NCBI GenBank assembly: GCA_900752785.1
Contig: CAADWP010000082.1
Span: forward strand, 1 to 43,409
DNA: 43,409 nt
Direction: 5' to 3'
Source: an uncultured Ruminococcus sp.
GTDB taxonomy: Bacteria; Bacillota; Clostridia; Oscillospirales; Ruminococcaceae
The notes under the pieces: generated by a model
The model's database searches: none
What the model was told of the DNA's origin: nothing
Seen by the model: only the letters and a program-made list of their open reading frames with translations
Position numbers and translations under genes: made by a program
Part shown: in pieces, positions 2,891-14,756 of the stretch
How the letters are laid out: each line of letters opens with the position of its first letter
How positions within the stretch are numbered: the first letter of the stretch is position 1

Positions 2891-2990
2891 CAACTTTTCG
2901 TACTTTAGGTTAAAAGATTCGGAGTAAAAATGTCTTATATTTTAAGATACATATACAAAATCTTAAATGACTGAAAATATTGTTTATAAT

Positions 2991-3024
2991 CGTATAAAAA
3001 GGAGCGTTTGAACAGCGCTCCTTT
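2991..3024 (-). terminator. Terminator after the TSCPD-domain gene
   Basis: A perfect 9-bp stem AAAGGAGCG (2998-3006) / CGCTCCTTT (3016-3024) is followed on the minus strand by a short T-run (TTTTTATACG). It lies 5 nt past the stop of the 3029-3286 gene. Confidence 0.85.
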
Positions 3025-3028
3025 AAAA

Positions 3029-3286
3029 TCATTTTTTTAATTTTTCGTAAGCCTGTCTTACAGCAATACAAAGCTGGTCGGCACAGGAGGTTGATCGCCT
3101 TCCACAAGTATTTCCCTTGAGCTTTGCTTCAATTTCCTCGACAGTCCAACCGTCAAGCACCTTTGAAAGAGCTTTGAGATTGCCATTGCAGCCTCCATTA
3201 AACGAAATATCCGTGATAACGCTGCCCTCAATATTAAAATTTATCTCATGTGAACAAACGTCTTTAGTCTTATAAGTGTAACGCAT
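3029..3286 (-). CDS. TIGR03905-family TSCPD-domain protein
   Basis: The 85-residue protein is Cys-rich. It has an early Cys in DVCSHEI, then GGCNGNL near 33, and NTCGRRSTSCADQL near 60. The last segment is the TSCPD-type motif, also found at the C-terminus of class II ribonucleotide reductases. The stand-alone family (TIGR03905) is common in clostridia and has no established function. The clustered cysteines suggest metal or redox chemistry, but that is inference. The start has AGGAGG 5 nt upstream. The gene diverges from spoVT across a 139-nt gap and ends in its own terminator, so it is probably monocistronic. Confidence 0.8.
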   Translation of the reverse strand: MRYTYKTKDVCSHEINFNIEGSVITDISFNGGCNGNLKALSKVLDGWTVEEIEAKLKGNTCGRRSTSCADQLCIAVRQAYEKLKK

Positions 3287-3354
3287 AACTGCCTCCTAAT
3301 ATAGCAAAATATCATAAAATTTCAAAAAATTACATAATTCGGCATCTTTATAGA

Positions 3355-3374
3355 CATAGGTATAATTTCCTATG
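3355..3374. promoter_or_regulatory. Palindrome around the putative spoVT -10 element
   Basis: CATAGG (3355-3360) and CCTATG (3369-3374) form a perfect 6-bp inverted repeat. They flank an 8-nt centre that contains TATAAT on the plus strand, about 60 nt upstream of the spoVT start. No good -35 was found. The arrangement would suit an operator, or DNA bound by the SpoVT/AbrB-type dimer itself, but this is only suggested by position. Confidence 0.4.
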
Positions 3375-3425
3375 ACCGGGCAATAATAACACCACAAAAA
3401 TAAATTATTTTTGGAGGAATTATAT

Positions 3426-3965
3426 ATGAAAGCAACCGGAATTGTAAGACGAATAGACGACCTCGGACGTGTTGTTATTCCAAAGGAGATCAGACGCACC
3501 ATGCGTATCAGAGAGGGAGATCCTCTTGAGATCTATACAAACAGCGAAGGCGAAGTCATTTTTAAAAAATATTCAGCAATAAACGAAATGAGCGAAAACG
3601 CATCATATGTAGCGGACATAATGTTTAGAATCGCAGGCTGTCCTGTTGTGATATTTGATAAGGACCACGTAGTAGCTTCTGCCGGAGTCCCACGCAAGGA
3701 GTTCGCTGAAAGACGCGTAACAGGTCAGCTTGAGGAGCTTATGGAAAACAGAGGACAATATTTCTGTCCTGACGGAAACAGCGGAAACTTCTTTCCTGCC
3801 GAAGGTGTTGATCGGAACGCAATTGCTGCCGTTCCAATAATTACAGCAGGAGATGTATCCGGTGCAGTAGCTTTTTTAAGCTCTGATAAATCTAAAGAGG
3901 CTAACGATCTGCAAAAAAGCCTTATAAATGCAGCGGCGCAATTCCTTGCACGTCAAATTGAATAA
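3426..3965 (+). CDS. spoVT: Stage V sporulation protein T (AbrB-type regulator)
   Basis: The 179-residue protein is a transcription regulator of late forespore genes in spore formers. Residues 1-50 are the AbrB-like swapped-hairpin DNA-binding domain (MKATGIVRRIDDLGRVVIPK, then IRRTMRIREGDPLEIY). Residues 55-179 form the GAF-like sensor domain of SpoVT (MFRIAGCPVVIFDKD; AVPIITAGDVSGAVAFLSS). The length matches Bacillus SpoVT (about 178). The ATG at 3426 is chosen because GGAGGA sits 7 nt upstream; an in-frame TTG at 3411 is part of the ribosome-binding site. It is the only confident plus-strand gene of the window, flanked by divergent and convergent neighbours. In Bacillus it is read by sigma G; no clear sigma-G promoter is visible here. 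The identity is secure. Confidence 0.95.
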   Translation: MKATGIVRRIDDLGRVVIPKEIRRTMRIREGDPLEIYTNSEGEVIFKKYSAINEMSENASYVADIMFRIAGCPVVIFDKDHVVASAGVPRKEFAERRVTGQLEELMENRGQYFCPDGNSGNFFPAEGVDRNAIAAVPIITAGDVSGAVAFLSSDKSKEANDLQKSLINAAAQFLARQIE

Positions 3966-3975
3966 TTAAGAATCT

Positions 3976-4005
3976 GTAGGGGACGATGTGAGCATCGCCC
4001 CTTAC
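3976..4005. repeat. GC-rich palindrome, possible dispersed repeat or bidirectional terminator
   Basis: GTA-GGGG-A-CGATG (3976-3988) pairs with CATCG-CCCC-T-TAC (3993-4005) around a TGAG loop, with single-base bulges. It sits between the convergent ends of spoVT and the acyl-CoA synthetase. There is no T-run on either side, which argues against a simple terminator. It resembles small dispersed palindromes found between genes in ruminococcal genomes; that resemblance is from memory and not tested. Confidence 0.5.
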
Positions 4006-4040
4006 GTTTAAGCGACCATATCATATGCAGGAATGGCAGA

Positions 4041-6347
4041 TTACCCTTTAAGTTCAACGCGTCTGATTTTTCCGCTGATAGTTTTTGGAAGCTCATCACG
4101 AAATTCAACGATCCTTGGATACTTGTACGGAGCAGTATGCTCCTTTACATAATTCTGGATCTCTTTTTTGAGTTCCTCAGTGCCTACAGTCCCCTTTGTA
4201 AGAACAATTGAAGCTTTAACAACCTGTCCTCTTACCGGATCGGGAGCAGCGCTTACGCCGCATTCAAGTACATACGGAAGTTCCATGATAACACTTTCGA
4301 TCTCGAAAGGTCCGATGCGATAACCCGAGGACTTGATAACATCGTCAACACGTCCAACATACCAGAAGTAACCGTCTTCATCCTTCCATGCAGTATCTCC
4401 AGTGTGATAAAGTCCGTCGTGCCATACCTCCTTAGTCTTTTCTTCATCCTTATAATAGCCGAGGAAAAGACCTACAGGAGCGCCTTTATCTGTACGGATA
4501 ACGATCTCTCCTGTTTCACCGGGCTTAACGGGATTTCCGTCCGTATCAACAATATCAACATCATATTGAACGCTTGGCTTGCCCATTGAGCCGGGACGTG
4601 CTGTCATACCGACAAAATTTCCGATAGAAAGCGTAGTTTCGGTCTGTCCAAAGCCTTCCATAAGCTTTACGCCCGTAGCTTTAAGGAACTGATTATAAAC
4701 CTCGGGATTTAGAGCTTCACCAGCAACAGTAGCATACTTTATGCTGCTAAGGTCATATTTTGAAAGATCTTCTTTAATGAAAAAACGGAACATTGTAGGC
4801 GGTGCACAAAAGGTAGTAATGCCGTATTTCTTAAACATTGGAAGTATTTTGCTTGCATCGAATCTCTCAAAGTCATAAACAAATATACATGTCTCACTGA
4901 GCCATTGTCCATAAAGCTTGCCCCAGAGAGCTTTTCCCCAACCTGTATCGGAAATAGTAAAATGTATTCCGTTTGGATCGACATTGTGCCAATAACGAGC
5001 CGTCACAAAATGACCAAGAGCATACAAATGACTGTGAGTCGCAATTTTCGGATAACCCGTAGTACCTGAGGTAAAGAACATCAGATTCGGTTCCTTTCCG
5101 CAGGAAAGCTCATTTGGATCTGTAGGACGTTCAAAAACGCTGCTGCATCTCTTGATGCCTTCATCAAAGCTGAACCAACCGTCACGCTCGCCGTTAGCCA
5201 TCATGCGCGTGATCTTCATACCGCATTCTTCGATCGCAAGATCGACCTGATGAGCAACGTCTCCGTCGCCTGTGCAGACGATAGCTTTAACGTCGGCAGC
5301 CTTAAAACGATAGGTAAAATCATGCTGAACAAGCTGATTTGTAGCAGGTATTACGATCGCGCCGATTTTATGAAGAGCGATAATAGCAAACCAGAACTGA
5401 TAATGTCTCTTTAATACGAGCATTACTCTGTCGCCCTTTTTGATGCCCATAGAACGGAAATAATTTGCCGTCATATTGGAATATTTCTTTATATCCGCAA
5501 ATGTAAAGCGACGATCCTCCAATTCATTTGATACATATATAAGTGCAGTCTTATCGGGACTTTTTTCTGCAAGCTTGTCTACAATATCAAAACCGAAGTT
5601 AAAAACATCCTCATTTTTAAAATTGATCTCAGTCAACGCGCCGTTTTCATCTGTTTTAACGTCAACAAATTTATCTGCGACAGGATTTTCTACCTTAGCG
5701 AGATCAAAATTAGTAACACCGGGAAGAATAACAGGTTCAAGATAATGGAGCGCTTTTTGGGGAGCAGATGTACCGAACACAATTGCATAAAATTTGCACT
5801 CCTGACCTCCTACTGCCCATTCGTCATGAGGCTCTGAACTGTCATAATAAATCGAATCGCCCTCGTTAAGTATCTCGACATTATCGCCGACCTGAACTTT
5901 AAGCTGACCGCTGATAACGATATCCATTTCCTGTCCCTCATGAGTATGAGGGTGCGAAACGCGGAATTTCTCGTCAACGTAAGGAACGGTCACAAGGAAA
6001 GGTTCGCCGATCTTATTTTTAAAATTAGGAGCAAGACGAAGATATGTAAAACCCTTGCGTCGTGCAATTGGAAGTCCTTCCCCTTTTCTGGTTATATCAA
6101 AGCTGTTGATGTGAGGACTTTCGCCTTCCATAAGATCAGTGATCTCAACACCGCAGGCATTTGCAAATTTATAGATAAATGTAAAGCTGAAGTCCTTAGC
6201 GCCGCCCTCATAGGCGAGATATTCAAAGGTAGATATTTCAGTTTTCTGCGCCATTTCTTCGGGAGAAAGACCCACTGATTCACGAACAGCTTTAATTCGT
6301 TCTGCAACCTCTCTTATCTTAAACTCGGGATTCATTAAATTACTCAT
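4041..6347 (-). CDS. HTH (XRE) - cupin - acyl-CoA synthetase fusion protein
   Basis: One uninterrupted 768-residue frame joins three modules. Residues 12-75 are an XRE-type helix-turn-helix (ERIKAVRESVGLSPEEMAQK). Residues 112-192 are a cupin with HPHTHEGQEM and EPHDEW as likely metal or ligand residues. Residues 245-768 are a complete AMP-forming acyl-CoA ligase of the medium-chain/acetyl type: P-loop TSGTTGYPK (426-434), GFGQTE (565-570), YHTGD (647-651), hinge GRVDDVIKSSGYRIGP and catalytic K760 in PKTISGKIRR. The HTH-cupin half matches one-component regulators, which suggests that a ligand or acyl metabolite controls DNA binding while the ligase makes or consumes it. The start has AAAGGAG 12 nt upstream. 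The gene is monocistronic behind a consensus promoter. The modules are certain; substrate and coupling are unknown. Confidence 0.9.
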   Translation of the reverse strand: MSNLMNPEFKIREVAERIKAVRESVGLSPEEMAQKTEISTFEYLAYEGGAKDFSFTFIYKFANACGVEITDLMEGESPHINSFDITRKGEGLPIARRKGFTYLRLAPNFKNKIGEPFLVTVPYVDEKFRVSHPHTHEGQEMDIVISGQLKVQVGDNVEILNEGDSIYYDSSEPHDEWAVGGQECKFYAIVFGTSAPQKALHYLEPVILPGVTNFDLAKVENPVADKFVDVKTDENGALTEINFKNEDVFNFGFDIVDKLAEKSPDKTALIYVSNELEDRRFTFADIKKYSNMTANYFRSMGIKKGDRVMLVLKRHYQFWFAIIALHKIGAIVIPATNQLVQHDFTYRFKAADVKAIVCTGDGDVAHQVDLAIEECGMKITRMMANGERDGWFSFDEGIKRCSSVFERPTDPNELSCGKEPNLMFFTSGTTGYPKIATHSHLYALGHFVTARYWHNVDPNGIHFTISDTGWGKALWGKLYGQWLSETCIFVYDFERFDASKILPMFKKYGITTFCAPPTMFRFFIKEDLSKYDLSSIKYATVAGEALNPEVYNQFLKATGVKLMEGFGQTETTLSIGNFVGMTARPGSMGKPSVQYDVDIVDTDGNPVKPGETGEIVIRTDKGAPVGLFLGYYKDEEKTKEVWHDGLYHTGDTAWKDEDGYFWYVGRVDDVIKSSGYRIGPFEIESVIMELPYVLECGVSAAPDPVRGQVVKASIVLTKGTVGTEELKKEIQNYVKEHTAPYKYPRIVEFRDELPKTISGKIRRVELKG

Positions 6348-6453
6348 GGATAGCTTACTCCTTTCTGAAGATTACGCCGCCAAAATACTTCGAGACGACC
6401 TTATATTAAATTAATAAAAATACAGATAATGCTGCCTTAACGCAACATAAATT

Positions 6454-6482
6454 ATTATACCACTTTAAAACGCAAATGTCAA
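6454..6482 (-). promoter_or_regulatory. Consensus sigma-A promoter of the HTH-cupin-ligase gene
   Basis: The minus strand has TTGACA (6477-6482), a 17-nt spacer ending in TGG (extended -10) and TATAAT (6454-6459). Direct repeats AACGCAA on the plus strand at 6469-6475 (in the spacer) and 6439-6445 (just past the start site) lie exactly 30 bp apart and could be operator half-sites. The 5' leader of about 100 nt otherwise shows no clear structure. Confidence 0.85.
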
Positions 6483-6527
6483 TTGATTTTTTTCTCTTTG
6501 TGAATGGCTGCGGTATTGTTATAAAGA

Positions 6528-7127
6528 CTATTTATTAATAAACGTTACAAATATGCCTTGTACTATATCAAGATCACCAAATCCGAATCTGACAATATTG
6601 CTTACACTATTTTCGTTATCGTCATGATCTGCGTTATATTCAAAATTCGAATCACTCTGGAAATCTGGCTCGCCAAATGCTGCGACAACATCCTCCTTAC
6701 TTGAACCGATTCCAACTCCATTAATAACGAAATAATTCTGAAAATTCTCATCTGAAAGCTGTTCATAGGTTCCCAATCTTCTTACTGTCATTGAATACCG
6801 ATCACCGCTTTTATCACTATTAATAAAAGCTGCAACAAAGGCAGGATGACCATTATATAATACGCAACCCGTATTATCTACAAACTCAAATCCCTCACCC
6901 AACGAGCCAACAGTAAAAGGTAATTCTATTGGTTTACCACAAAGTCGAATCGTGGACGCTACCGTTTCGGCAGTCCATCCTCCCTCCGGCGGCGCAATTG
7001 CTTTATATTCTGTGGTCTGTGACTGCTCAACCGTAGGATCAACGCTTGATTTTTTATCAGATTTACAGCCGACTGCAAAATTCATAAGCACCGTTATGCA
7101 TAAAAACGCTAAAATTTTTCTCTTCAT
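6528..7127 (-). CDS. Putative lipoprotein of unknown function
   Basis: The 199-residue protein begins with a lipoprotein signal peptide: MKRK, a hydrophobic stretch (ILAFLCITVLMNF) and lipobox AVGC, with lipidation at about C21. A Ser/Thr-rich linker follows. The rest is a soluble domain of about 160 residues without a recognised family. A segment NGVGIGSSKEDVVAAFGEPDF resembles the small repeat seen in SmpA/BamE-like and related lipoproteins (GxSxxxVxxxxGxP). The ATG at 7127 is chosen because GGAGG sits 5 nt upstream; an in-frame TTG at 7139 overlaps that site. It lies downstream of fruK with a 106-nt gap that contains TATAAT without a good -35, so it may be transcribed separately. The export prediction is firm; the function is unknown. 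Confidence 0.8.
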   Translation of the reverse strand: MKRKILAFLCITVLMNFAVGCKSDKKSSVDPTVEQSQTTEYKAIAPPEGGWTAETVASTIRLCGKPIELPFTVGSLGEGFEFVDNTGCVLYNGHPAFVAAFINSDKSGDRYSMTVRRLGTYEQLSDENFQNYFVINGVGIGSSKEDVVAAFGEPDFQSDSNFEYNADHDDNENSVSNIVRFGFGDLDIVQGIFVTFINK

Positions 7128-7233
7128 TTTTTCCTCCAATTACCCATTTTATCATTATATCTATTCTTTTATTTATACTAATTTAAAATCGACCCGTAGA
7201 CGATCTTGTCTTCATAACAATATAAAATTAGCA

Positions 7234-8136
7234 TTAAAAAAGTTTTTCAAAGCATTTAAATATTTTTTCACGAGATGCAAGTCCCTCCGAAAATGCAGTA
7301 GCTCCTCCGGCCGCCGTACCAAGCTTTAACGCATATTCACAGCCGCCCTCGTCATAACCGGCAATAAATCCTGCCAGCATAGAATCTCCTGCTCCTACTG
7401 AATTTACCGAAGTTCCGCTGCATACCCCACAAATATGAGTATTTCCTGATTCGTCAACAAGCGCTGCTCCATTTTCAGCCATTGACACAAGGACGTTTAA
7501 TGCACCCATTTCTTTAAGCTTTTTCGCATATTTTACCGCATCGTCGATCGTTTCGACGGAAACTCCGAACATCTCGCCAAGCTCAATATGATTTGGCTTG
7601 ACCAGAAAAGGCTTGTATTTCAGCACATTCAGCAAAAGCTCCTTTGACGCGTCAACAACTGCCCTCACCCTTTTTCCGCTTAAACACTGAAGGATCTTTT
7701 CATAAATGTCGGCAGGCAGCGTTGACGGAACGCTGCCTGCAAGAACTATCGTATCTCCGTCAGAAAGTTTGTCTATTTTGCCAAACAGCTCTCCAAGCTT
7801 GTCCGCAGGAATTTCAGGTCCCTGAGCGTTAAGCTCTGTCTCCGCGCCCGATTTGATCTTGACGTTTATGCGTGAGAATCCGCTGTCAAGATGAACAAAA
7901 TCAGTTTCTATACCACGCTGCGCGATGCTTTTCTCGATCGCCTCTCCGGTGAAGCCTGCCGTAAATCCCAACGCTCTTGAAGCTATCCCAAGCTCGTGAA
8001 GAACAAGCGAGACGTTTACGCCCTTTCCGCCAAAATATATTCTCTCGTCTTTCAGCCGATTTACAGAACCTTTCTCAATTTGATCGGTATAAACCACGAG
8101 ATCGACTGCCGGATTGAACGTTACCGTATATATCAT
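7234..8136 (-). CDS. fruK: PfkB-family sugar-phosphate kinase, 1-phosphofructokinase type
   Basis: The 300-residue protein has both PfkB signatures: GGKGVNVS (36-43), which binds the sugar, and SVGAGDSMLAGF (246-257), where D251 is the expected catalytic base. The start MIYTVTFNPAVDL and the length are typical of 1-phosphofructokinase and the related tagatose-6-phosphate kinase (LacC). The reaction would be ATP-dependent phosphorylation of fructose 1-phosphate, or a close analogue, in the cytoplasm. The gene begins 9 nt after carB and shares its operon. It is not next to a fructose PTS or a DeoR regulator, which is the usual fruK setting. GGGGGC precedes the ATG. The exact substrate is not settled by the sequence; the kinase family is certain. 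Confidence 0.85.
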   Translation of the reverse strand: MIYTVTFNPAVDLVVYTDQIEKGSVNRLKDERIYFGGKGVNVSLVLHELGIASRALGFTAGFTGEAIEKSIAQRGIETDFVHLDSGFSRINVKIKSGAETELNAQGPEIPADKLGELFGKIDKLSDGDTIVLAGSVPSTLPADIYEKILQCLSGKRVRAVVDASKELLLNVLKYKPFLVKPNHIELGEMFGVSVETIDDAVKYAKKLKEMGALNVLVSMAENGAALVDESGNTHICGVCSGTSVNSVGAGDSMLAGFIAGYDEGGCEYALKLGTAAGGATAFSEGLASREKIFKCFEKLF

Positions 8137-8145
8137 GGCTGCCCC

Positions 8146-11100
8146 CTAAATTTTCGTTATATCCACAAGCTCAACATCGCTTATAGTACGTCCCAATTCA
8201 AGAACCTTTGCCAAAGCCTTTGCCGTATCAATAGCGGTAAGGCTGCAAATTGAACGTTCTATAGACTTGCGGCGCATTTTTACGCTGTCACGCTCGGGAA
8301 GTCTTCCTTTAGCAGAGGTCGAAATCACGTAATTTATTTTTCCGCTTTCAAGGAGCGTGACCGCATTAGGCTCTCCATCCGAGATCTTGCGGACGAGATT
8401 TGCCGCGATCATATTTCTATGAAGAACGCTCTGAGTTCCGGAAGTTGCGTAAATATCAAAGCCCATGCGCTCAAATTTATCGGCAATCGGAAGAATTTCC
8501 CTCTTATCCGTATCGCGGACGGAAATCAGTACTCCGCCTTGCCTCTTTAAGTCAAAGCCTGCGGCAATAAGTCCTTTGAGAAGCGCGTCTTCAAGATTCC
8601 TGCCTATTCCGAGACATTCTCCCGTAGATTTCATCTCAGGTCCGAGCATTGTGTCAACATCGGTAAGTTTCTCAAAGCTGAATACGGGAACTTTTACCGC
8701 AACATAATCCCCTGCCGGATAGAGACCGCTTTCATATCCCATATCTCTGAGCTTTGCGCCGAACATGATCTTCGTAGCTATATCGACCATAGGGATTCCC
8801 GTAACCTTGCTGATATACGGAACTGTTCGCGACGAACGCGGATTTACCTCGATAACATAAACTTCGTGATTGTAAACAACATACTGGATATTTACAAGAC
8901 CTATCACGTTAAGCTCCTTGGCAAGCTTTCTCGTATATTCAACAATTATCTTTTTTATTCTTTCCGAAAGATGCTGCGCCGGATAGATAGAGATCGAATC
9001 TCCGGAATGTACGCCTGCGCGCTCGATATGCTCCATGATACCAGGGATAAGGAAATCCTCTCCGTCGCAGATCGCGTCGACCTCTACCTCCGTTCCCATC
9101 ATATACTTGTCTATAAGCACCGGATTTTCTATCATACGGCTTGTTATGATGCCCATATATTCGATAACATCAGCCTGCGAATGGGCAATTATCATATTTT
9201 GTCCGCCCAGAACATAGGAAGGCCTGAGAAGTACGGGATATCCAAGAGATTCAGCCGCTGCAACAGCTTCTTCGGTAGTCATTACCGTATGACCCTGAGG
9301 ACGCGGGATTCCGCATTTTTCAAGAATTTCGTCAAACCGTTCTCTGTCCTCGGCTGCGTCGATCATATCGGCAGAAGTTCCGAGAATATTCACGCCCATG
9401 TCTGAAAGATGACGAGTAAGCTTGATAGCCGTCTGACCGCCGAACTGAACTACAACGCCATACGGCTGTTCAGTCTCGATAATAGCTTCAACGTCCTCTT
9501 TTGTGAGGGGATCAAAATACAGACGGTCCCCCGTATCGAAATCGGTCGATACAGTCTCAGGATTGTTATTGCAGATGACCGCCTCGTATCCAAGCTCTTT
9601 CAGCGTCCACACACAGTGTACCGAGCAGTAGTCGAATTCGATTCCCTGTCCGATTCTGATAGGTCCTGAGCCGAAAACAATAATTTTTTTCTTGCCTGTA
9701 TCAGTGCGTTCAATGAACTGCTTCGCTTCGTTTTCCTCGTCAAATGTGGAATAGAAATAAGGAGTTTCAGCCTTGAATTCGCCGGCGCAGGTATCTACCA
9801 TTTTGAACACCGCACGTTTGCGCAGCGGACATTTCTGTCCGGAAAAACGCTCGATCGTGCTGTCAAGATAGCCGTATTGCTTTGCAATATTGTATTTTTC
9901 TTCCGTAAGCTCGCCGTCTGCAAGCCATTTTTCAAGCTCGGCAAGATTCAAAAGCTTGTATAAGAACCAGTTGTCGATCATCGTAATATCGTGAATTTCC
10001 TCGGGAGTAATTCCGCGTTTAAGCGCCTCGAAAACGACAAACGAACGCTCGTCGTCAATAACGTGGAGCTTCTTGCGGACTTCTTCATCGGTAAGATTTT
10101 CAAGCTTTTTAAGATTCATGCTGTCAAGTCCAAGCTCGATAGACCGAACGGCTTTCATGATAGCCTGTTCAAAGCTTGTACCGATAGCCATTACCTCTCC
10201 GGTCGCTTTCATCTGAGTGCCAAGGGTTCTCTTTGCATAAACAAATTTATCAAAAGCCCATTTTGGGAACTTTATTACCACATAGTCGAGCGCAGGCTCA
10301 AAGCAGGCATATGTCTTACCTGTTACCTGATTTATAATTTCATCGAGAGTATAGCCGACAGCGATCTTTGCCGCCGTTTTTGCGATCGGATATCCCGTTG
10401 CCTTTGAAGCGAGCGCGGAGGAACGCGAAACTCTCGGATTCACCTCGATAACGGCATATTCAAAGCTTGTGGGATGAAGCGCAAACTGACAGTTGCATCC
10501 GCCCTCTACTTTTAGTTCTTTAATAATATTTATAGCCGCAGTACGGAGCATCTGATACTCTCGGTCGCTGAGTGTAACGGCAGGAGCGATAACGATACTA
10601 TCACCCGTATGAACTCCTACAGGGTCGAAATTTTCCATTGAGCAGACGGTTATAACGTTACCCTTTGCATCGCGTATTACTTCAAATTCTATTTCCTTCC
10701 AGCCGCTTATGCATTTCTCAATAAGCACCTGAGTGATAGGAGACAGCCGAAGTCCGTTCGTGGAAATATCGCGAAGCTCCTCCTCGTTCTGAGCAATACC
10801 GCCGCCTGTTCCTCCAAGTGTGAAAGCAGGACGTACAATTACGGGATACCCGATAACTTCCGCAAAATCTACGGCGTCGTCAACCGTCTCAACTACCTTT
10901 GAGGGAATACAAGGCTCGCCGATTTTCTCCATTGTGTCCTTAAAGGCCTGCCTGTCTTCAGCCTTGTGGATAGTCTCGGGATCGGCGCCGAGCAGCTTTA
11001 CGTTATGCGAATCGAGAAATCCTTCCGCCGCAAGCTGCATGGAAAGCGTCAGACCCGTCTGCCCCCCCAAAGTTGACAAAACGCTGTCGGGCTTCTCAGT

Positions 11101-11337
11101 TTCAATAATTCTTTTTATAACTTCAAGAGTCAGCGGTTCAATGTAGACCTTATCCGCCATTGCCTTATCGGTCATTATAGTTGCAGGATTTGAATTAACA
11201 AGAACTACCTCAAGTCCCTCCTGTTTAAGCGCGCGGCAAGCCTGTGTTCCTGCATAATCAAACTCCGCAGCCTGTCCGATAACAATAGGACCCGAGCCGA
11301 TAACGAGAACCTTTTTTATATCATTTCTAAGCGGCAT
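8146..11337 (-). CDS. carB: Carbamoyl-phosphate synthase large chain
   Basis: The 1063-residue chain uses two ATP to turn bicarbonate and ammonia into carbamoyl phosphate. It has the standard duplicated layout. The first ATP-grasp half opens VLVIGSGPIVIGQAAEFDYAG. The second half opens IIVFGSGPIRIGQGIEFDY near residue 550. A C-terminal MGS-like allosteric domain (GGVLISVRDTDKREILPIA, from about 930) follows. Its length is normal. The ATG at 11337 (MPLRNDIKKV) fits the family N-terminus; an in-frame GTG at 11346 overlaps carA. The start lies one base after the carA stop, so the two subunits should be made in equal amounts. It lies inside the PyrR-attenuated operon, so uridine nucleotides should control it both transcriptionally and, in many relatives, allosterically. 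Secure identification. Confidence 0.97.
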   Translation of the reverse strand: MPLRNDIKKVLVIGSGPIVIGQAAEFDYAGTQACRALKQEGLEVVLVNSNPATIMTDKAMADKVYIEPLTLEVIKRIIETEKPDSVLSTLGGQTGLTLSMQLAAEGFLDSHNVKLLGADPETIHKAEDRQAFKDTMEKIGEPCIPSKVVETVDDAVDFAEVIGYPVIVRPAFTLGGTGGGIAQNEEELRDISTNGLRLSPITQVLIEKCISGWKEIEFEVIRDAKGNVITVCSMENFDPVGVHTGDSIVIAPAVTLSDREYQMLRTAAINIIKELKVEGGCNCQFALHPTSFEYAVIEVNPRVSRSSALASKATGYPIAKTAAKIAVGYTLDEIINQVTGKTYACFEPALDYVVIKFPKWAFDKFVYAKRTLGTQMKATGEVMAIGTSFEQAIMKAVRSIELGLDSMNLKKLENLTDEEVRKKLHVIDDERSFVVFEALKRGITPEEIHDITMIDNWFLYKLLNLAELEKWLADGELTEEKYNIAKQYGYLDSTIERFSGQKCPLRKRAVFKMVDTCAGEFKAETPYFYSTFDEENEAKQFIERTDTGKKKIIVFGSGPIRIGQGIEFDYCSVHCVWTLKELGYEAVICNNNPETVSTDFDTGDRLYFDPLTKEDVEAIIETEQPYGVVVQFGGQTAIKLTRHLSDMGVNILGTSADMIDAAEDRERFDEILEKCGIPRPQGHTVMTTEEAVAAAESLGYPVLLRPSYVLGGQNMIIAHSQADVIEYMGIITSRMIENPVLIDKYMMGTEVEVDAICDGEDFLIPGIMEHIERAGVHSGDSISIYPAQHLSERIKKIIVEYTRKLAKELNVIGLVNIQYVVYNHEVYVIEVNPRSSRTVPYISKVTGIPMVDIATKIMFGAKLRDMGYESGLYPAGDYVAVKVPVFSFEKLTDVDTMLGPEMKSTGECLGIGRNLEDALLKGLIAAGFDLKRQGGVLISVRDTDKREILPIADKFERMGFDIYATSGTQSVLHRNMIAANLVRKISDGEPNAVTLLESGKINYVISTSAKGRLPERDSVKMRRKSIERSICSLTAIDTAKALAKVLELGRTISDVELVDITKI

Positions 11338-11338
11338 A

Positions 11339-12445
11339 TCACTCACCGTCCCTTTCCATAGTCTTTATAAATTCATCAAACAAATAAGACGTATCGAGAG
11401 GTCCGCCATGAGCCTCCGGATGAAACTGTACCGTGAAAGCGTTTACGGATGTATATCTTATTCCCTCGCAGGTCTTGTCGTTGGCGTTGATATGGGAAAC
11501 TTTTCCGACCCCGGCGGGAATGCTGTCTCCTACAACCGCATAGCCGTGATTCTGGCTTGTAACATATGTCAAACCGCTTTCAATATCAATAACAGGCTGA
11601 TTTGCTCCGCGATGACCATATTTCAGCTTTTCCGTCCTGCCACCGTTCGCAAGAGCCATAAGCTGATGACCGAGACAGATGCCAAAGATCGGTATACCAA
11701 GCTTTTCGATCTCCTTAATATTCTCAATAATTTCAACATTTTCAGAGGGATCTCCGGGGCCGTTCGAGAACATTATCCCGTCCGGAGAAAACTTTTTTAT
11801 CTCGTCGGCAGTCGTTGCGGCGGGAACTACGATGACCTCGCAGCCGCGGTTAACAAGCTCCTGACGAATGTTTCGCTTATATCCGAAATCAAACAGCGCA
11901 ACCCTGTATTTCGGGTCATTACCGGCATATGTAAGCATTCCCGTGCCTGTAACGGAGCTGACTGCATTTTTGACCTCAAATGCACGTATTTTTTCAAGAA
12001 GCTCGTCTTTTTGAGCATACACGTCATCCGTCGTTATAACACCATTCATAACGCCTGCCTCGCGAATCATACGCGTAAGACGACGCGTGTCGATATTACA
12101 GATCCCGACCACGTTCTGCTCTTTCAAAAAGTCATTGATATTACCGCCGCACCGAAAATTAGACGGTATTTCGCACCATTCTCTTACGATATATCCGCTC
12201 AGATAAGCTTTTGAGGATTCGTCGTCTTCATCGTTCACACCGTAATTTCCGATAAGCGGAAATGTCTGCGTAACTATCTGTCCATAATAACTCGGATCTG
12301 TAAGCGTTTCCTGATATCCCGTAAGTCCTGTCGCAAAAACGACCTCGCCGATCACAGTTCCCTTAGCGCCGAAGCTTCTGCCTTCAAAAACCTGACCGTT
12401 GGCAAGCATAAGATATGCTTTTTCACTTTGTTTGAATAAAGACAT
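11339..12445 (-). CDS. carA: Carbamoyl-phosphate synthase small chain (glutaminase)
   Basis: The 368-residue subunit hydrolyses glutamine and channels ammonia to CarB. The N-terminal half is the CarA-specific domain (FATGLTGYQETLTDPSY). The C-terminal half is a class I glutamine amidotransferase, with nucleophile C257 in GICLGHQ and the H342/E344 pair in FHPEAH. The ATG at 12445 (MSLFKQSEKAYL) is chosen because GAAAGGACG sits just upstream and it matches the family start. The frame is open 24 codons further, but that stretch has no family resemblance. The 106-nt gap to pyrF holds a 12-bp palindrome (12502-12513) and a small hairpin (12462-12477), with no terminator T-run. Secure. Confidence 0.97.
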   Translation of the reverse strand: MSLFKQSEKAYLMLANGQVFEGRSFGAKGTVIGEVVFATGLTGYQETLTDPSYYGQIVTQTFPLIGNYGVNDEDDESSKAYLSGYIVREWCEIPSNFRCGGNINDFLKEQNVVGICNIDTRRLTRMIREAGVMNGVITTDDVYAQKDELLEKIRAFEVKNAVSSVTGTGMLTYAGNDPKYRVALFDFGYKRNIRQELVNRGCEVIVVPAATTADEIKKFSPDGIMFSNGPGDPSENVEIIENIKEIEKLGIPIFGICLGHQLMALANGGRTEKLKYGHRGANQPVIDIESGLTYVTSQNHGYAVVGDSIPAGVGKVSHINANDKTCEGIRYTSVNAFTVQFHPEAHGGPLDTSYLFDEFIKTMERDGE

Positions 12446-12551
12446 TTTTATCGTCCTTTCACGGAGTAAGCCCTCCGCCGGCAATTTTTTGAAATTCTGA
12501 CCGCAGCGCTGCGTCATTGAAGCACGCGGTTAATGCCCGAATAATTCTTGA

Positions 12552-13475
12552 TTAAAGATTGATGTACTGCGTAATATCGTCTCTCATACGGATGACTTCC
12601 CGGCGTGCAGCTTTAGCGAAATCCCGCTCATCGCAGCCCTCTTTCTTGTATGCGCACATAACGGCGCGGCTGGAATTAACGATTGCTCCCAGACCGCGTT
12701 CGTCAAAACCGCCCTTGAGTCCCTCAGCTCCTCCGCCCTGAGCGCCGTATCCGGGAACAAGGAACATCGTATGCGGCAGTCTTTTTCTAAGCTCTGCAAG
12801 CATTTCTGGGTATGTAGCTCCTACGACAGCTCCGACCGAAGAATATCCGTATTTACCAATTGAATCTTCTCCCCATTTTTCACACATATCGCCCATTCTT
12901 GCATAGATCGGCGTACCGTCCTCAAGCTTCATATCCTGAAGCTCGCCGCTCGACGGGTTCGACGTCTTAACGAGTACATAAATGCCTTTATCACGCTCTT
13001 TGCAGACCTTTAAAAGCGGAGCTATGCCGTCCGTTCCAAGATAACCGTTTACCGTAAGAGCATCCGCTCCGAACGGTTCAATTTCACTGTCCTCCACAGT
13101 CACCGTTCCAAGATGTGCGTTAGTATACGCTTCCATTGTCGCGCCAATATCGTTTCTCTTACCGTCTGTAATTACAAACATTCCGTTCAGCTTTGCATAA
13201 CGGATCGTTTTTTCAAGAGTTCTGATCCCATAGTGACCGAACATTTCATAATAAGCCGCCTGCGGCTTGATAGCCGGAACTATGTCGTGAATTTCGTCTA
13301 TAATAGCCTGATTAAAGTCAAATATCGCCTTTGAGGCAGCCTTTAAAGTCCAGCCGTCGCTGTCCTGATAGCGTCTGCGGATAAACTGCGGAACATAATC
13401 GAGCTTCGGATCGAGACCAACAACTGTTGGATTTTTCAGTGTAATGATTTTTTCAATAAGTCTGTCAAATGACAT
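12552..13475 (-). CDS. pyrF: Orotidine 5'-phosphate decarboxylase (long, type 2 form)
   Basis: The 307-residue enzyme makes UMP from OMP, the last step of de novo pyrimidine synthesis. The catalytic D-x-K-x-x-x-D motif is DGKRND (D104, K106, D109). It belongs to the longer subfamily of about 300 residues (opening VVGLDPKLDYVP, with PAIKPQAAYYE near 67) rather than the usual 230-240 residue form of Bacillus. It starts 9 nt after pyrC and precedes carA. The start MSFDRLIEKI is typical for the subfamily. Secure. Confidence 0.95.
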   Translation of the reverse strand: MSFDRLIEKIITLKNPTVVGLDPKLDYVPQFIRRRYQDSDGWTLKAASKAIFDFNQAIIDEIHDIVPAIKPQAAYYEMFGHYGIRTLEKTIRYAKLNGMFVITDGKRNDIGATMEAYTNAHLGTVTVEDSEIEPFGADALTVNGYLGTDGIAPLLKVCKERDKGIYVLVKTSNPSSGELQDMKLEDGTPIYARMGDMCEKWGEDSIGKYGYSSVGAVVGATYPEMLAELRKRLPHTMFLVPGYGAQGGGAEGLKGGFDERGLGAIVNSSRAVMCAYKKEGCDERDFAKAARREVIRMRDDITQYINL

Positions 13476-13484
13476 AAGTTAACC

Positions 13485-14756
13485 TCACCTTTCGTCGTAG
13501 CGTATAATTCCTTTTGATATGGTCACAAGTGGCTTACCCGTAAGGGTCATGCCCTTGAAAACACTGTTATGAGATTTAGAGTGTAATTTTTCCGGATCGA
13601 CAATCCATTTTTTATTTATATCCGCGATCATCAGATCGGCAGTCTTTCCCTTGCTTATGGAAGGAACTTCAAGTCCAAGAATCTTTCTCGGATTGACGCA
13701 CATAAGCTCCGCTATTTTATTAAGTGAAACTTCTCCGGTATGATAAAGAGCCGTAAGCGATGCTGCAAAGGAAGTTTCAAGTCCCACAACGCCGTTCGGT
13801 GCTTTTTCAAAATCGGCTTTTTCTTCGGCAGCGTGAGGTGCGTGATCTGTAATTATGCAGTCTATCGTGCCGTCCTTTATTCCTTCGATTATCGCCTTAA
13901 CATCGGCATTTGTCCTAAGCGGCGGGTTCATTCGGTAATCCGCGTCGCGCTTGCGCAAAAGTTCGTCCGTAAGCATAAAATAATGCGGCGCTGTCTCACA
14001 GGTGACCTTAATTCCGCGTGATTTCGCAAAACGTATGATAGCCGTACTGCCCTCGGTCGAAACATGACAAATGTGTATCCGAGCATTTGCGGAAGCGGCA
14101 AGAATTATTTCACGGGCAGTAATGCTGTCCTCTGAAGCTCTGTCCATCCCCTTTACTCCCAGCTCATTGGAAATTTCGCCCTTGTTCATAATACCGCCGT
14201 TTATAATACTCAGATCCTCACAGTGAGAAGCAACCAGCATACCGTTCGTGTTTGATCTTTTCAGCGCTTCAAGCATCATTCCCGCATTTTCAACTGGGCG
14301 TCCGTCATCGGAAATGCAGATGCAGCCGGATTCTTTCAGCGCATCGTAATCGCACAAACCGTCGCCGTTCATCCCTGCCGTGATGCAGCCCACAGGATAA
14401 ACATCAACTCCCGTATTTTCAGCCTTTTCAATCATATACCGCACTATTTCGGGAGAATCGCAGGGCGGCTTTGTATTCGGCATCGCCAAAACTCCCGTAA
14501 CTCCTCCTGCAAGAGCTGCCGCACAGCCTGTAAGAATATCCTCCTTGTGGGTCTGTCCGGGATCGCGAAAATGAACGTGCATATCAAATATCGAGGGCAT
14601 AAGCGTCAGACCGCTGCCGTCTATTATCTGCTCAGCCGGTATTTTTAGCTCTTTACCTGTATCTGCAATAATTCCGCCGTCTATAAACACATCGGTTATC
14701 CTGTCCGTTTCAGCGTCAACGGCACGAATATTTTTTATCAGAATTGAATTCGCCAT
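13485..14756 (-). CDS. pyrC: Dihydroorotase
   Basis: The 423-residue zinc amidohydrolase interconverts carbamoyl-aspartate and dihydroorotate. Metal ligands H60 and H62 lie in DMHVHFRDPGQTHKED. Further ligands lie in CHVST and TDHAPH near residue 300. It is of the Bacillus PyrC (class I) type in length and motifs. GGAGG lies 5 nt before the ATG, and the gene begins 9 nt after the pyrR stop. The partner aspartate transcarbamylase (pyrB), which often precedes pyrC, is not in this operon and must be elsewhere. Secure. Confidence 0.96.
   Translation of the reverse strand: MANSILIKNIRAVDAETDRITDVFIDGGIIADTGKELKIPAEQIIDGSGLTLMPSIFDMHVHFRDPGQTHKEDILTGCAAALAGGVTGVLAMPNTKPPCDSPEIVRYMIEKAENTGVDVYPVGCITAGMNGDGLCDYDALKESGCICISDDGRPVENAGMMLEALKRSNTNGMLVASHCEDLSIINGGIMNKGEISNELGVKGMDRASEDSITAREIILAASANARIHICHVSTEGSTAIIRFAKSRGIKVTCETAPHYFMLTDELLRKRDADYRMNPPLRTNADVKAIIEGIKDGTIDCIITDHAPHAAEEKADFEKAPNGVVGLETSFAASLTALYHTGEVSLNKIAELMCVNPRKILGLEVPSISKGKTADLMIADINKKWIVDPEKLHSKSHNSVFKGMTLTGKPLVTISKGIIRYDER

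Follow-up and report, generated by a model that had tools for sequence, protein, structure and literature searches.

A candidate branched-chain acyl-coenzyme A synthetase fused to a helix-turn-helix and cupin head in an uncultured Ruminococcus

The stretch of DNA considered here, referred to as the window, comprises 43,409 nucleotides (nt) of an uncultured Ruminococcus sp. (contig CAADWP010000082.1, positions 1 to 43,409, assembly GCA_900752785.1). On its minus strand lies a single frame (4041-6347) with an ATG start, 768 residues and zero internal stops, which joins an XRE-type helix-turn-helix (HTH) domain, a cupin and an AMP-forming acyl-coenzyme A (acyl-CoA) synthetase in one chain. The features of this gene and of the region directly before it are as follows.

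4041..6347, minus strand: fused gene of XRE-type HTH, cupin and AMP-forming acyl-CoA synthetase, from the 768-residue frame and its Pfam domains
6120..6317, minus strand: XRE-like HTH, residues 11-76, acidic, with R17, R22, Y43, E47 and G75 invariant in 51 aligned rows
5763..6017, minus strand: cupin, residues 111-195, with H136, E140 and H174 invariant and position 134 variable in the family, His in the window
5613..5762, minus strand: variable linker, residues 196-245, with low model confidence in parts of 193-211
4044..5612, minus strand: acyl-CoA synthetase, residues 246-768, nearest solved structure 3etc
4923..4937, minus strand: pocket segment G-K-A-L-W, residues 471-475, in which K472 and W475 are equated with Lys256 and Trp259 of Macs by our own mapping
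4068..4070, minus strand: K760 of the PKTISGK motif, presumably the adenylation lysine of the synthetase, invariant in 110/110 fused rows
6358..6364, minus strand: ribosome-binding site AAAGGAG, read in the sequence
6454..6482, minus strand: promoter TTGACA (6482-6477), 17 nt, TATAAT (6459-6454), with a TG extension, directly before the leader

Four Pfam domains exceed their cut-offs in the window protein, namely HTH_19 (residues 16-76, 30.6 bits, barely above 30.2), Cupin_2 (residues 131-189, 48.2 against 27.2), AMP-binding (residues 258-632, 206.6 against 29.9) and AMP-binding_C (residues 682-760, 74.6 against 24.5), while HTH_3 and HTH_31 stayed under their own cut-offs in the same scan. 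The first two domains are those of an XRE-cupin regulator; the last two, together with the P-loop SGTTG and with E570, D651, R666 and K760, are those of an ANL-superfamily synthetase, and these four residues are invariant across all 110 fused rows. The continuous frame and the three modules with intact key motifs that a preliminary description of this DNA had reported are thereby borne out. Within the window the gene stands alone, the frame past its 3′ end being oppositely oriented.

That the fusion might be a sequencing or assembly error joining two adjacent genes, a doubt raised in the same description, is ruled out because 150 distinct fused proteins with continuous frames were recovered across all loci examined, and because a full-length, stop-free fusion is present in at least 64 of 291 genomes sampled from the class of R. 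flavefaciens SAb67 (a minimum counted by hand from the listed rows; the fused genes of G077 and G050 in this sample hold internal stops). One locus, L026, has a broken frame, its interrupted fused frame running from 6001 onward for 461 codons following the start of homology. Scanning of species genomes yielded at least 80 loci, and all 120 listed homologues among 7998 scored carry HTH_19, Cupin_2, AMP-binding and AMP-binding_C. The architecture, whose frequency had been left unstated, is thus a common one in databases, where the entries that have a name are called 'AMP-binding protein'.

Other states in the 291-genome sample include the synthetase by itself and a pair in which an HTH-cupin gene precedes the synthetase gene. 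For such split pairs the frame caller gave neighbouring separate frames in 14 of 15 loci, an antisense frame masking the HTH-cupin gene in the fifteenth (L127), and in an unrooted tree the 14 split rows all lie on the same side of a single branch. To judge from these sequences, the most likely origin of the HTH-cupin head is a gene for an XRE-cupin regulator directly upstream of a synthetase gene. The simplest history would be a merger of adjacent regulator and enzyme genes, a presumed direction given that the tree has no root. No conserved operon partner adjoins the fused gene, the largest cluster of flanking frames covering 9 of 80 loci. A roughly 480-residue protein that combines ACT and metallo-beta-lactamase domains, perhaps concerned with amino-acid sensing, is encoded on the same strand just downstream in 5 of the 80 loci (L041 at 6354-7796, L042, L049, L067 and L072; domains scanned in L067), and a MaoC-like dehydratase gene lies nearby in 4 (L041 at 2974-3405, L047, L067 and L079; scanned in L041).

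By sequence as well as by fold, the nearest solved structure is 3etc, the synthetase Macs of Methanosarcina acetivorans, with about 50% identity over window residues 242-767. Its Lys256, Trp259 and Cys298 map to K472, W475 and C514 of the window (own mapping, in which the 256/259/298 spacing fits), and these three residues are invariant in a 42-row alignment, as expected of the acyl pocket of a Macs-like branched medium-chain synthetase. The PDB title of 3etc describes Lys256 as linked to a cysteine, which we take to be Cys298. Two alignments were made by fold, of 51 and 42 rows, after removal of three candidate rows with a stop inside the range used. The preferred acid of Macs is 2-methylbutyrate (PMC10455477). 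On sequence grounds the window protein is probably a branched-chain acyl-CoA synthetase preferring 2-methylbutyrate, or isobutyrate in a sister type described below. The earlier proposal of a sensor-like part tied to a carboxylic-acid enzyme stands in outline, with the acid now narrowed to these probable substrates.

The main evidence comes from the leaders of relatives. T-boxes turn genes on when an amino acid is scarce. Of the 123 distinct fused genes outside the window's clade, 108 have a T-box pattern within 480 nt upstream. Among the 103 with a readable specifier, 84 carry AUC (Ile) and 19 GUA (Val). A pattern matching the conserved core identified most of these T-boxes; the count required at least 450 nt upstream, which excluded 7 of the 150 fused proteins, and the specifier register, set by the CUUC half of stem I, was likewise read by pattern, leaving 5 of the 108 unreadable. 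Two candidate specifiers each in L046 and L210 were settled manually as AUC, and of the two in L044 the one nearest the core was taken, also AUC. The reading is not bound to AUC or GUA, since an unrelated T-box in L041 reads CUC. An apparent Phe specifier in L066 was rejected, as the register beside the CGAGC block reads AUC.

The Rfam T-box model was applied to 22 loci (sets of 11, 5 and 6, with L063, L071, L030 and L060 in two sets), apart from 8 window-clade controls. Of the 11 loci, six (L015, L032, L035, L044, L049 and L062) had a match over the gathering score immediately upstream of the fused gene, and L030, L057, L060, L063 and L071 had none at that score, although L030, L060, L063 and L071 did yield one below it by E-value. 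Across 16 fused genes tested from L030, L060, L063, L071, L075, L180, L182, L186, L188, L190 and L196, all 16 were preceded by a T-box (E ≤ 3.6e-14; 2 over the gathering score). T-boxes are rare, with 11 matches, 7 over the cut-off, in the whole R. flavefaciens SAb67 genome. The 20 GUA tree rows, together with four unread ones, form one clade within the Ile-type family. Ile-type and Val-type copies differ at fourteen positions, of which 12 carry the Ile-type residue in the window and 1 the Val-type residue; the discriminating positions 471 and 474 flank the pocket Lys and Trp. These differences were rejected as proof of specificity, since the Val rows are one clade and lineage changes are mixed in.

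A further line is the neighbourhood of some relatives. VorB, a subunit of 2-oxoacid:ferredoxin oxidoreductase of the VOR type, is encoded next to the synthetase gene in 10 of 163 loci, the 163 including some places entered twice under different ids. L063 and L071 share the order T-box(Ile)-fused gene, T-box(Val)-fused gene, P-loop ATPase, VorB, beta and gamma, the VorB matches scoring 540 and 543 bits against a cut-off of 399; the ATPase was scanned in L075, with whose copy the L063 and L071 frames cluster, and the Val-type gene of L071 spans 3282-5573. An Ile copy, a Val copy and VorB also occur together in L075 and L180, an Ile copy, a second copy with an unread specifier and VorB in L182, and a Val copy with a piece of VorB on the short contig of L181; a split pair ends the VOR operon in L122 and L123, and VorB is divergent from an adjoining synthetase gene in L204 and L205. 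The small P-loop ATPase-like protein before VorB (L122 4254-4940, L063 10926-11591) is CbiA/ParA in the L075 copy and has no Pfam or NCBIfam match in the L122 copy; one more T-box, which scores highest of the set (122 bits), lies downstream of the vor region of L182 (12725-12955). At the level of whole genomes, VorB (E ≤ 1e-100) was present in 59 of 64 genomes with the fusion and in 127 of the remaining 227 (Fisher p 1.8e-8, uncorrected for kinship; G105 was scored as lacking VorB despite the contig-end piece in L181).

The clade of the window's own copy spans 23 tree rows, 22 of them without a T-box. In the final count 19 of 20 window-clade genes had none, the exception being L015 with a T-box(Ile), and at E ≤ 0.01 the Rfam model found none in any of the 8 loci of this clade to which it was applied. 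Upstream of 6000 in L015, a window-type coding region stands behind the T-box(Ile), with first codons as in the other paralogue, and from its sequence this locus looks like a recombination between two fused copies. The consensus promoter noted in the preliminary description is indeed present and is shared by the clade, scoring 12-13 of 13 in 20 of 22 rows; L006 and L015 are the exceptions, the promoter preceding a T-box in L015. No operator common to the promoters or leaders, nor any palindrome common to the promoters, was seen by eye, without a formal motif search, only the -35, -10 and Shine-Dalgarno elements being conserved. A weak GTAAGC motif directly follows the -10 box in 8 of the 20 window-clade leaders and is lost in the window, where an imperfect dyad, ATGTTGC-6-GCAGCAT, takes its place at 6430-6450. 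Long-range pairing of the 5′ end with the Shine-Dalgarno region (GTAAGC/GCTTGC) was discarded, as shuffled partners were equally stable in 1059 of 2000 cases over the 20 window-clade rows other than L006 and L015.

VorB is present in 21 of 22 window-clade genomes. Where second fused copies occur in these genomes, their T-boxes read AUC (six from the final specifier count, plus those of G001 and G298, listed as L032 and L035). Because the T-box has been lost, the residues are Ile-type, VorB is nearly always present and the second copies read AUC, the window gene probably encodes a 2-methylbutyryl-CoA synthetase that is expressed from a promoter and has escaped control by tRNA.

In combination, the T-box specifiers, the VOR neighbours and the substrate of the nearest enzyme suggest one pathway, in which this enzyme converts a branched acid to acyl-CoA and VOR then carboxylates it reductively to the keto acid. 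Rumen fermentation uses 2-methylbutyrate as a precursor of Ile and isobutyrate as one of Val (PMC7356843). The sequences show the fusion and its motifs, the T-boxes with their specifiers, the VOR neighbours and the split relatives, from which the substrate, the direction of flux, the direction of the gene merger and the function of the head are inferred. The favoured and likely reading is that of a branched-chain acyl-CoA synthetase, likely acting on 2-methylbutyrate and feeding reductive carboxylation to isoleucine. Briefly, the enzyme would convert ATP, the acid and CoA to acyl-CoA, AMP and pyrophosphate, after which 2-methylbutyryl-CoA would be reductively carboxylated anaerobically by the VOR-type oxidoreductase to the keto acid of isoleucine. 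The cupin would most likely sense the state of the pathway, with the head acting on the attached enzyme or on partner molecules. In the majority of relatives outside the window clade, uncharged tRNA-Ile (tRNA-Val in the sister type) would raise expression through the T-box, whereas in the window clade the T-box has been lost and a strong sigma-70-type promoter serves instead.

Several observations weigh against this reading. No known RNA leader was found before the window gene, where Rfam gave no T-box (RF00230) at the gathering score or at E ≤ 1, and the pattern found none before 15 of the 123 fused genes outside the clade. The VorB linkage is an exception, since it holds for 10 of 163 loci overall and for 0 of 51 with at least 4 kilobases on both sides; no VOR neighbour of the window gene was recognised by eye, and VorB is widespread in the class (over the cut-off in 185 of 291 genomes), while the co-occurrence test ignores kinship. 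The window protein also falls far short of the cut-off of the MbcS equivalog NF047394 (452.8 against 850 bits). Finally, a second fused copy with a T-box(Ile) is found in 8 of 22 window-clade genomes, and the window type may therefore have another job.

Such a job could be to supply membrane-lipid synthesis, instead of amino-acid synthesis, with branched acyl-CoA primers, as in S. aureus, where 2-methylbutyrate and isobutyrate are activated by MbcS on the way to branched fatty acids (PMC10026030). The coexistence with a T-box(Ile) copy and the absence of the T-box from 19 of 20 clade members would agree with this role. It is nevertheless considered unlikely, as no other fused copy was found in 14 of the 22 genomes (some assemblies perhaps being incomplete), VorB occurs in 21 of the 22, and the clade member L015 does have a T-box(Ile). 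Far less probable still is a catabolic direction, in which VOR would make branched acyl-CoA from amino acids and the enzyme would conserve energy or serve acid export. VOR reactions are reversible, which would permit it, but AMP-forming synthetases run towards acyl-CoA, and the T-boxes of the relatives, which switch genes on under amino-acid scarcity, fit synthesis.

As for the head, its model reached a mean predicted local distance difference test score (pLDDT) of 85.7 and a predicted template-modelling score (pTM) of 0.56, and its top Foldseek match is the HTH-cupin enzyme HppE, followed by the regulator 1y9q. The preliminary description envisaged a self-regulating enzyme, in which a carboxylic acid, acyl-AMP or acyl-CoA controls DNA binding. 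Spelled out, the HTH would bind its own or other promoters, with the controlling ligand at the cupin or active site. This idea did not find support and appears doubtful. No shared operator or palindrome is apparent to the eye, and most relatives outside the window clade have a T-box ahead of the gene instead. The head, moreover, is kept less strictly than the enzyme, mean pairwise identities being 57% for the HTH, 55% for the cupin, 30% for the linker and 73% for the enzyme over 110 fused rows (82%, 80%, 61% and 86% within the window clade). Positions 40 and 41, at the start of the recognition helix, vary even among relatives about 85% identical. A negative net charge is found for the HTH of 108 of the 110 fused rows and of all 14 split rows, compared with 6 of 20 controls, which were the best 20 among 42 HTH_3 domains in a single R. 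flavefaciens genome (51-56 residues, compared with fused residues 17-73). The charge is too weak to serve as proof against DNA binding by the window protein, whose -3 equals the lowest controls.

A head that does not bind DNA, acting as a structural or allosteric module as in HppE, is quite possible. The ranks by fold are close, however, with 1y9q at rank 6 (E 4.6e-13); 1y9q is also the only PDB match of the head by sequence (E 0.0099), the HTH framework is retained, and an origin from a regulator is the simplest history. In the cupin, H136, E140 and H174 are invariant in all rows, whereas position 134 is His in 19 of 110 fused and 0 of 14 split rows; the window itself holds the full His-x-His, Glu, His set (H134, H136, E140 and H174). 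Because of the acidic HTH, the variable positions 40-41, the lack of a shared operator by eye and a cupin without a constant His 134, an allosteric or scaffold role seems somewhat more likely than DNA binding, on the strength of sequence and model. A more speculative and rather improbable extension is that the Ile- and Val-type heads act as enzyme-borne isoacid sensors, reporting branched-acid or acyl-CoA status to DNA, for example at vor genes, beside tRNA control. If true, the enzyme would be a second, metabolite-level sensor of its pathway, and the window clade would rely on the protein sensor alone.

Around the fused gene, a frame named by eye as an AbrB/SpoVT-like regulator (3411-3965, plus strand) is convergent with it, and the minus-strand frame upstream resembles a small lipoprotein, again by eye. 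Further upstream on the minus strand (7234-14756), lie frames that resemble a phosphofructokinase-family kinase and the pyrimidine genes carB, carA, pyrF and pyrC, all named by eye.

Fibre digesters such as R. flavefaciens, which has two fused copies, need isoacids, and the HTH-cupin-synthetase family provides a concrete candidate for isoacid activation in rumen bacteria. No named isoacid-activating enzyme of rumen bacteria appeared among the matches listed from the open-licence literature. The T-box codon predicts the acid taken by each copy, and the family would also lend meaning to many gut genes now annotated 'AMP-binding protein'. If the head is regulatory, the protein would be a one-chain enzyme-regulator in amino-acid supply. 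No publication on the fusion or its T-box was found, judged by titles and abstract openings, with subscription literature mostly uncovered, which makes this weak evidence of novelty. A term search of a 2008 T-box survey (PMC2494555) gave no mention of AMP-binding, acyl-CoA, CoA ligase, synthetase family, cupin or AMP-dependent.

Compared with known systems, the family resembles T-box-controlled amino-acid genes in the Ile or Val specifier leader of most relatives outside the window clade, unlike the window gene, which has no leader of this kind. With XRE-cupin one-component regulators (1y9q; PuuR-type) it shares the N-terminal domain order, and standalone HTH-cupin genes precede the synthetase in split relatives, but the head of the window is carried on an enzyme and its HTH is acidic. 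HppE, the fosfomycin epoxidase and top fold match, likewise combines HTH and cupin in one chain. There the cupin is the active site, whereas in the window family catalysis resides in an added domain and the cupin of most relatives is without one standard ligand. MbcS, the S. aureus methylbutyryl-CoA synthetase and best NCBIfam match, is alike in family and probable substrates; it differs in that the match, besides scoring below the cut-off, begins at residue 256 and excludes the head, and in its role, reported as lipid synthesis (PMC10026030). Macs (3etc), matched over chain positions 46-574 of 580, is a synthetase only, without the HTH-cupin head, yet it is the counterpart of the enzyme domain in both overall identity (about 50%) and the retained pocket residues Lys256, Trp259 and Cys298.
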